This document shows positions 1,894-34,681 of a DNA stretch of 64,000 nt, piece by piece. This stretch comes from an uncultured Flavobacteriaceae bacterium. Lineage in GTDB: Bacteria > Bacteroidota > Bacteroidia > Flavobacteriales > Flavobacteriaceae. How positions within the stretch are numbered: the stretch's first letter is position 1; every line of letters starts with the position of its first letter. The position numbers were made by a program, and so were the translations under genes. The stretch lies in NCBI GenBank assembly GCA_947494205.1, contig CANLUH010000012.1, forward strand, positions 1 through 64,000, written 5' to 3'. The notes beneath the pieces are model-generated. The model ran no database searches and was not told the DNA's origin. It worked only from the letters and a program-made list of their open reading frames with translations.

Positions 1894-1924
1894 TTGTTTT
1901 TTATTACTTTTTGTTTTACTTTTG
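1894..1924 (+). promoter_or_regulatory. Bacteroidota-type promoter of the candidate small RNA
   Basis: TTG at 1894-1896 and TACTTTTG at 1917-1924 fit the Bacteroidota sigma-A consensus TTG-N19-TAnnTTTG, with a 20-base spacer. No open reading frame follows; a hairpin and terminator follow instead. Confidence 0.55.
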
Positions 1925-1930
1925 CACCAA

Positions 1931-2010
1931 CAAACATACTTATGTTGTTAGTCGTCCCCAAGTCTAGCAATAAACAAAAAAAGGATAAACATTACGTTTA
2001 TCCTTTTATA
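1931..2010 (+). ncRNA. Candidate small RNA, about 80 nt
   Basis: Between a good promoter (-7 box ending at 1924) and a strong terminator (1979-2007) there is no coding sequence. Instead bases 1943-1951 pair with 1964-1972 (9 bp including two G-U pairs), presenting a 12-base loop with the C-rich sequence UCGUCCCCAAGU. Promoter, one hairpin with an exposed C-rich loop and a terminator is the classic layout of a trans-acting small RNA. It has no similarity I can recognise to 4.5S RNA, 6S RNA or tmRNA. The Rfam Flavo-1 motif should be compared, but I cannot recall its sequence well enough to assign it. Confidence 0.5.
1979..2007. terminator. Bidirectional terminator
   Basis: AAGGATAAAC (1981-1990) pairs perfectly with 1996-2005 around a 5-base loop, with A-run and T-run flanks on the two sides. 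It can end the plus-strand small RNA and the minus-strand ABC transporter gene that stops at 2024. Confidence 0.75.
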
Positions 2011-2023
2011 TTTTGTTCAATTT

Positions 2024-3847
2024 CTATTCAAAACTTTGCATGTCTACAAGTTTTTTATAAACTCCGTTTTTAGCAATGAGCTCGTCATGTTTGCCTTGCT
2101 CTGTGATTTCTCCTTTTTGCATCACAATAATTTCGTCTGCATTTTGAATAGTAGATAATCTATGTGCAATAACTATAGAAGTTCTATTTTTCATCATGTT
2201 TTCTAAAGCGACTTGTACTGTGCGTTCACTTTCAGTATCTAGATTAGAAGTTGCTTCATCTAATATCATTATTGGCGGGTTTTTTAATACTGCTCTTGCA
2301 ATATTTAAACGTTGTTTTTGGCCTCCTGAAATTTTAGCTCCTGAGTCTCCAATATTATGATTAATTCCTTTAGGTAAGTCTTTTACAAATTCCCATGCAT
2401 TGGCTATTTTAAGGGCTTCGATGATTTGTTCGTCTGTAGCGTTTTCTTTACCAATTAGGATGTTGTTTTTTATAGTATCGTTAAATAGAATGGAATCTTG
2501 AGAGACAATACCCATTATATTTCTTAAAGAATGCTTAGTTAAGTCCTTTATGTTTTCTCCGTCTATTGTAATACTTCCATTGTTAACATCATAAAAACGA
2601 GTAACTAAATTAGCAATCGTACTTTTACCGCTTCCTGATTGTCCTACTAATGCGATAGTTTTTCCTTTTGGAATATCTATCGAAAAGTTTTTAAGAACTA
2701 ATTCGTCTTCATATTTAAAATCGATATTATTTATTTTAATACCGGTATTAAAACCAACTTTAGTTTTCGCATTTGGTGAATCTTCAATTGGGCTTTTACT
2801 TTCAAGGACTTCTAATACACGTTCGGCAGAAGCATTTCCTCTTTTTACACTATAAAGTGCTTTACTTATAGATTTTGCTGGTGTTAGAATGTTATAAGCA
2901 AGTAATAAAAAGCCTAAAAATTCTGCTTCGCCAAGTTGTTTTTGGAATACCATTTGTCCTCCATAAATTAGTATGGTTGCAATAGTTAATATCCCTAAAA
3001 ATTCGCTTGCGGGAGAGGCTAGGTTTTGCCTATTCATTAAGGAATTAGAAAATTTATAAAGTCTATGTGTAGAGCTTTCAAACTTATTTCTAAACACACC
3101 TTCTGCATTAAAACCTTTTATAACTCTTAAGCCGCCTAAAGTTTCTTCTAATGAAGATAGAAACATACCGACTTCATTTTGTACTCGATGCGATTTCTTT
3201 TTTAAACTCTTTCCTATAAATGAAATAATAAATCCAGAAATTGGAATAAATACAAAAACAAATAATGTTAATTTAGGGCTAAGTATTAACATTGAAATTA
3301 TTGCAAATAATATTGTTAATGGTTCTCTTACTATTAACTCAAGAACGGCAAGAAATGACATCTGTACTTCGCCAACATCTGAGGCAATTCTAGAAATAGT
3401 ATCACCTTTTCTTTTCTCAGTAAAATAGGATAAAGGGAGGTTAACAACCCTTTTAAACATTTCGTTTCTAAGATCTTTTAAAACGCCATTTCTTAGAAAA
3501 GTAATGAAGTATAAAGAGAAATAGCCAAATAGGTTTTTTAGTAAAAAAAGCACGACTATAATTCCTACTATATATAATAAGGCTCTTTCTTGTCCTATGA
3601 CTCCCATTTTTTGAGTTATAAAATAGTAGAAGGAATCCGATGCGTAATCTTTAAATTGTTTAATACCAGTCCAAGTTGGTTTAATATTAACCTGCTTGCT
3701 TTTATCAAAAAGTACGTTAACCATTGGTATTAAAGCAATCATAGATAAAGTGCTAAAAAGCGCATAGAAAACATTACAAATAATATTTAGGATACCATAC
3801 TTTTTATAGGGTAACGCAAAGCGTAGTATTTTTTTTAAATAATTCAT
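2024..3847 (-). CDS. ABC transporter, fused permease and ATPase (MsbA-like exporter)
   Basis: A 607-residue half-transporter of the type IV ABC exporter (MsbA/lipid exporter) family. The N-terminal membrane domain (to about residue 330) has six predicted transmembrane helices. The ATPase domain has Walker A GQSGSGKST (402-410), signature ISGGQ (506-510), Walker B MILDE (527-531) and the H-loop histidine (562). It functions as a homodimer or heterodimer in the inner membrane; lipid A or lipid-linked substrates are typical but not provable here. Its start overlaps the stop of the upstream phosphosugar mutase by one base (TAATG), indicating an operon. Confidence 0.85.
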   Translation of the reverse strand: MNYLKKILRFALPYKKYGILNIICNVFYALFSTLSMIALIPMVNVLFDKSKQVNIKPTWTGIKQFKDYASDSFYYFITQKMGVIGQERALLYIVGIIVVLFLLKNLFGYFSLYFITFLRNGVLKDLRNEMFKRVVNLPLSYFTEKRKGDTISRIASDVGEVQMSFLAVLELIVREPLTILFAIISMLILSPKLTLFVFVFIPISGFIISFIGKSLKKKSHRVQNEVGMFLSSLEETLGGLRVIKGFNAEGVFRNKFESSTHRLYKFSNSLMNRQNLASPASEFLGILTIATILIYGGQMVFQKQLGEAEFLGFLLLAYNILTPAKSISKALYSVKRGNASAERVLEVLESKSPIEDSPNAKTKVGFNTGIKINNIDFKYEDELVLKNFSIDIPKGKTIALVGQSGSGKSTIANLVTRFYDVNNGSITIDGENIKDLTKHSLRNIMGIVSQDSILFNDTIKNNILIGKENATDEQIIEALKIANAWEFVKDLPKGINHNIGDSGAKISGGQKQRLNIARAVLKNPPIMILDEATSNLDTESERTVQVALENMMKNRTSIVIAHRLSTIQNADEIIVMQKGEITEQGKHDELIAKNGVYKKLVDMQSFE

Positions 3848-34359: not shown

Positions 34360-34367
34360 TACTTTTG
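34360..34367 (+). promoter_or_regulatory. -7 element of the btuB promoter
   Basis: TACTTTTG matches TAnnTTTG and lies just upstream of the riboswitch. The nearest TTG (34334-34336) is 23 bases away, longer than ideal. A divergent TACTTTTG on the minus strand at 34320-34313 serves btuF. Confidence 0.55.
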
Positions 34368-34374
34368 CAGCGAA

Positions 34375-34640
34375 TTTTGGTTCGGCTTTGCTTTAATGCG
34401 AAATCGATTAAAAGGGAATCAAGTGAAGCGATATATAATTGTCGATTTTTGATTTACGATTTTTGAATAACTCTAACGTAAATCTATTGGCTATTTAAAC
34501 TCAATAATTCTTGAACTGTTCCCGCAACTGTAATCTTAGTCGCCGTTAGGTGATGCTTATTATTAAACTTCTAACCACTGGTTTTAGAGAACTGGGAAGG
34601 TAAATAATAAGACGAGAGTCAGGAGACCTGCCATGATTTA
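34375..34640 (+). promoter_or_regulatory. Cobalamin riboswitch with an extended peripheral loop
   Basis: All hallmarks of the B12 riboswitch occur in order: AAAGGGAATCAAGTGAA (34411-34427), CTTGAACTGTTCCCGCAACTG (34510-34530), CCACTGG...ACTGGGAAGG, and the B12 box AGTCAGGAGACCTGCC (34617-34632), 50 bases before the btuB start. Between CAAG and its partner CTTG, where the usual loop is short, lie about 80 extra bases containing a perfect 8-bp stem (34451-34458 with 34477-34484). When cobalamin binds, btuB translation should fall. It fills most of the 391-base gap between btuF and btuB. Confidence 0.92.
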
Positions 34641-34681
34641 ACATCTAAATACGACACTCGGGTAAAGCGTCTTGAAGATTT

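Follow-up and report, generated by a model that had tools for sequence, protein, structure and literature searches.

A candidate decoy for a widespread flavobacterial small RNA, encoded beside an ECF sigma factor operon

The 64,000-nucleotide stretch of Flavobacteriaceae DNA analyzed here (the window) carries on its minus strand an ECF sigma factor gene (1196-1738; Sigma70_r2 and Sigma70_r4_2 domains, supported by synteny), after which come an anti-sigma candidate (562-1140) and a gene for a 157-amino-acid protein (87-560). On the other side lies an ABC transporter gene, also on the minus strand (2024-3847; ABC_membrane and ABC_tran domains, with synteny). The gap between them holds, on the plus strand, a predicted small RNA of about 78 nt, RNA-1 (about 1930-2007), which is delimited by its promoter, fold, terminator and covariance model. 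RNA-1 is divergent from the ECF operon, as a preliminary description of this DNA had noted, and convergent with the ABC gene.

The elements of RNA-1 can be read directly from the sequence, and the order of promoter and hairpin with a 12-base loop is as first described. A sigma-A promoter of the Bacteroidota type consists of TTG (1894-1896, the −33 element) and TACTTTTG (1917-1924), the latter matching the phylum's promoter consensus TAnnTTTG (PMC9723704), and its position is kept in relatives. The transcript would begin with a mostly unpaired segment, box B (1933-1946), which reads AACATACTTATGTT in the source genome and AACCTACTTATGTT in the family consensus. Hairpin 1 (1943-1972) pairs 1943-1951 with 1964-1972 through 9 pairs including two G-U, around the loop UCGUCCCCAAGU (1952-1963), and this loop contains most of a second segment, box A (CCCCAAGTCT, 1956-1965). 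The terminator (1979-2007) had been described as a perfect 10-bp stem; it is present, with a stem of 12 pairs, and works in both directions, so that the convergent ABC gene is served as well. The fold of the 83-nt region has a predicted energy of −22.8 kcal/mol (z = −7.2), and none of 200 shuffled sequences folded as well. The region had also been said to lack a reading frame. Frames of 41 and 59 amino acids can in fact be read across it, but none is conserved, as the insertions and deletions in relatives are not multiples of three. At the sequence level, the promoter, the terminator and the lack of a conserved frame are what an independent transcription unit would show.

No Rfam family was reached by the RNA-1 region at gathering thresholds, and the sole match in the window was a cobalamin riboswitch elsewhere (34361-34649, 79.4 bits). 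In the loci of five relatives (L010-L013 and L016), all matches from a permissive search stayed below threshold, Flavo-1 (RF01705) was not listed among them, and the covariance models do not place RNA-1 in that family, for which a check had been proposed.

When 99 relatives were searched at the DNA level, RNA-1 turned up in the same gap between the ECF sigma operon and the ABC transporter gene across many genera. A covariance model built from 14 of these relatives detected it in 79 of the 397 Flavobacteriaceae genomes sampled, which represent 54 of 237 genera; all have a single copy except for one tandem case. One pattern scan gave 75 named records with RNA-1, including those of Algibacter, Tamlana, Hyunsoonleella, Mariniflexile, Flaviramulus, Mangrovimonas, Xanthomarina, Seonamhaeicola, Formosa, Lacinutrix and others. 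Among 70 aligned matches, 97.1% of the cells in the stem of hairpin 1 are paired, double changes occur at six of its seven pairs, and the covariation was reached by none of 500 shuffles. These results bear out the preliminary view of a small RNA gene with an exposed C-rich loop, and they show this loop to be conserved. The locus could instead be an untranscribed DNA element, or only the bidirectional terminator of the ABC gene, which that structure does serve; this is extremely improbable given the position of the promoter, the covariation of the hairpin and the maintenance of the boxes on one strand across 54 genera.

Two segments are near-invariant in the 70 aligned matches, namely AACCUACUU in box B at the unpaired 5′ end and CCCCAARU in box A in the loop. 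The full boxes, AACCUACUUAUGUU (B) and CCCCAARUCU (A), are both conserved and unpaired. The single variable base of box A is G or A in a ratio of 41:29, and box B has CTAA in place of CTTA in 11 of the 70 relatives. A pairing of the two boxes inside RNA-1 (AAGU with ACUU) was considered and rejected, because box B is unchanged where box A has gone from G to A. A further CCCAAR lies within 60 nt after hairpin 1 in 66 of 89 RNA-1 loci, mostly in the terminator loop, as would be expected if extra binding sites were useful; it often reads CCCAAATCT, a second box A, which is absent from the source genome. As a separate observation, the RNA-1 loci L173 (2010-2114) and L113 have two tandem hairpins, the second of which keeps the loop or the boxes; the upstream hairpin of L113 has a different stem round an identical CCCCAAGT loop.

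When the complement of box A was searched for in six genomes, a second locus emerged, lying between sodB (superoxide dismutase) and purF; it encodes another predicted small RNA, RNA-2. This RNA usually occurs in two or three tandem copies, and in four to six in some genomes. It was detected in 350 of the 397 family genomes and 220 of the 237 genera (E ≤ 0.01), with purF and/or sodB adjoining nearly all inspected loci; outside Flavobacteriaceae only weak matches were obtained, and these were taken as chance. The source genome has two copies (G000:C4:135607-135682 and G000:C4:135808-135884), and arrays of six (G003:C16:456802-458046) and five (G034:C1:1751080-1751990) with a spacing of about 200-250 bp were noted elsewhere. 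Each copy consists of ACCAUAACAUAAGUAGGUUAAGUUCAUGGUAGAUUUGGGGC followed by a terminator: a hairpin with apical AACAUAAGUAGGUU precedes single-stranded AGAUUUGGGG, and TAnnTTTG stands just upstream of many copies. Rfam gave no match to RNA-2 above threshold, and no description of RNA-1 or RNA-2 was found in the open-access literature searched.

Both boxes of RNA-1 are the reverse complement of parts of RNA-2. The exact reverse complement of box B is centred on the loop of the RNA-2 hairpin, and that of box A lies in the single strand after the hairpin, where AGATTTGGGG pairs with the box A of the source genome. Furthermore, either variant of the single variable base of box A can pair with the U in RNA-2, while the CTAA variant of box B would weaken the pairing. 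Box B has one mismatch to RNA-2 in the source genome, and the same count in its two congeners. In eight genomes with RNA-1, exact AACATAAGTAGGTT is confined to the RNA-2 copies, the complement of RNA-1 where box B is unchanged, and one extra site in G030 (L291). The two longest exact complementary stretches comprise 14 + 11 nt in G036 and 14 + 6 in G102; no shuffle out of 3000 equalled the stretches in these two genomes or in G021, and 2 of 3000 were as good as those of the source genome (10 + 6). Plain duplex energies in the source genome were only moderately better than those of shuffles (18 and 49 of 1000), and this measure, a weak test when used alone, is not leaned on. The box order B-A prevents one continuous duplex between the two RNAs. 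The conserved boxes of RNA-1 thus complement the seed of a second small RNA encoded by the same genome.

This complementarity bears on the question of what the loop of RNA-1 recognizes. According to the preliminary description, the C-rich loop would regulate mRNAs directly by pairing with G-rich leaders. The loop is indeed conserved and exposed, but counts of its complement RGAYTTGGGG in the source genome and several others are near those of a reversed-pattern control, and the contexts inspected lie mostly within coding sequence. The direction is also wrong: boxes B and A carry the sense strand of mRNA start regions, so RNA-1 cannot pair with those starts, and its strongest conserved G-rich partner is RNA-2. 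Direct mRNA regulation by RNA-1 is accordingly given a low probability. RGAYTTGGGG is over-represented in two congeners, G001 and G002 (40 and 47 occurrences, against 6 each for the control), an excess that sits in coding contexts where inspected.

A role for RNA-1 in titrating an RNA-binding protein, in the manner of CsrB with its GGA loops, would account for the recurrence of CCCAARU across many genera, both in hairpin 1 and in the loop of the terminator, as well as for the tandem hairpins of L173 and L113. Such a role leaves no place, however, for the equally conserved box B, and each base of both boxes has its match in RNA-2, A/G changes occurring only where pairing to U persists; we regard it as very unlikely.

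The mRNA targets of RNA-2 were sought as sequence patterns. The pattern ACCTACTTATGA has 59 matches in 50 family genomes compared to 31 for the reversed pattern, although the 59 include orthologues and are not all independent. A likely start codon, defined as an ATG that opens at least 100 codons outside any longer frame, is found in 26 of the 59 ACCUACUUAUGA occurrences compared to 12 of 106 other TTATGA sites (p = 2e-10). Export signals, called by a simple and crude hydrophobicity rule, are present in 22 of the 26 start-like proteins and in 197 of 480 frames taken from the window together with the named loci (p = 1.6e-5). Such start sites are found in genes for a CAP-domain lipoprotein, for esterases and for an astacin metalloprotease, among other families, and one genome has one in a gene for a LytTR response regulator. 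An A-like site lies upstream of several of these starts (e.g., L435, L456 and L487); the enrichment is modest, with 7 of 26 reaching p ≤ 0.05. In the source genome, the leader of a gene encoding a secreted Sortilin-Vps10 protein contains CCCCAAATCTACC, an A site, and the orthologue in two congeners has AACCTACTTATG, a B site, at the start codon instead. The gene at G000:C33:17536 has a predicted target start in the source genome, and no target-type sites were found within the window. In L390, L468 and L472, a conserved hydrophobic frame of 22 codons (MKNIKRIIILVSLVVMVSKIFF) was observed with its start codon within AACCTACTTATG.

Collectively, these observations suggest that RNA-2 would pair with mRNAs at AACCUACUUAUG, in which the AUG is the start codon, and also with an upstream CCCCAAAUC(UACC) site. 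It probably blocks the initiation of translation on mRNAs that encode lipoproteins and secreted proteins, as judged from the position of the sites. RNA-1 holds both target boxes in swapped order, with B in the unpaired 5′ end and A within the loop of a hairpin, and may capture RNA-2 and so relieve its targets. On this sequence evidence, RNA-1 is probably a trans-acting sponge, or target mimic, of RNA-2, a core small RNA of the flavobacteria. Some genomes, among them G003, G009 and G020, have RNA-2 and target-like starts while a match to RNA-1 is absent, and the pair of RNA-2 and mRNA thus looks older than RNA-1. The pairing may also be real with the roles reversed, such that RNA-1 is a regulated relic of the start region of a lost target, or protects or matures RNA-2. 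The target-consensus AUG within box B and the narrower distribution of RNA-1 relative to RNA-2 fit this proposal, which is nevertheless unlikely: RNA-1 has its own promoter, preceded by conserved repeats that resemble an activator site, as well as a stem that covaries and additional A boxes, and these features suggest that it was selected for binding RNA-2.

These repeats provide a clue to the control of RNA-1. Two direct copies of CGATTAA (plus strand, 1853-1859 and 1874-1880) with a period of 21 stand just upstream of the −33 element and are a likely activator site. Pairs of CGAYDAA 20 or 21 bp apart occur in this position in 76 of 89 RNA-1 loci, compared to 0 expected from shuffles. Such a spacing typically marks the sites of LytTR activators, for example AgrA. 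The direct repeats upstream of the sigma-A promoter suggest that RNA-1 is probably switched on by a LytTR-type regulator. The stress role that had been suggested from the ECF operon has a different footing, its link to RNA-1 being adjacency only and the promoter being of the sigma-A type (TAnnTTTG) with these repeats upstream. Genome-wide, the loose pattern CGAYDAA-N13-15-CGAYDAA showed no enrichment, and, with its counts near the reversed control, no regulon is claimed. In G026, a LytTR response regulator gene (L445, 1509-2207) starts at a predicted RNA-2 site, and a feedback loop through this gene is possible.

Further RNA-like elements were observed. A second candidate decoy RNA lies beside a gene for an oligopeptide-transporter-like ATPase in L448 (about 1380-1520; G000:C3, site 98341), L459 and L226, and has CCCAAAUCUACC...AACCUACUUAUG imperfectly repeated several times in succession, with about four A-like sites in L226. 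A third element, in L389 and L291 (3′ of mazG in the latter), has the seed CATAAGTAGGTTA followed by a strong terminator, and similar sequence is present in L443, L444, L457 and L470.

On balance, we favor a near-universal and previously undescribed circuit of Flavobacteriaceae in which tandem RNA-2 would silence messages for exported proteins by covering AACCUACUU-AUG starts, in cells largely without Shine-Dalgarno signals, and decoys (RNA-1 and the multi-site decoy beside the oligopeptide transporter gene) would set the level of RNA-2. Targets are known for few of the small RNAs of Bacteroidota, and most members of the phylum initiate translation without pairing to a Shine-Dalgarno sequence, which bears on the mode of action of small RNAs there. 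RNA-2 provides a case that spans a whole family, and its proposed target site has two defined parts, one of which takes in the start codon; RNA-1 would be the natural inhibitor of RNA-2. With the target motif, regulons could be predicted for hundreds of genomes, and exported proteins would be the chief clients.

Compared to known systems, RNA-1 and RNA-2 exhibit several likenesses and differences. First, Rfp18 of Flavobacterium psychrophilum is a functionally tested small RNA that affects secreted metalloproteases, is conserved in the genus and is described with at least three stem-loops (PMC9723704); RNA-1 and RNA-2 have two each, a comparison made by description only, and Rfp18 may equal RNA-2. 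Second, the FopS family of Bacteroides (RF04319) is alike in comprising paralogous small RNAs in the phylum, but the RNA-2 locus scores 23.5 bits against its threshold of 56, on the opposite strand. Third, CsrB/RsmY-type titrating RNAs have a repeated loop motif in common with RNA-1, but that motif is GGA and the RNA-1 loops, in which repeated GGA was looked for and not found, carry CCCAAR; moreover, the partner found for RNA-1 is an RNA. Finally, bacterial RNA sponges have been experimentally demonstrated in Vibrio cholerae quorum sensing (PMC9732341), for RoxS of Bacillus subtilis (PMC8216469) and in Caulobacter (PMC12559287), and literature searches found none described in Bacteroidota. Like these sponges, RNA-1 complements the seed of a different small RNA, which it is proposed to titrate; unlike them, it is known from sequence alone and copies a two-part mRNA target with the order of the parts swapped.
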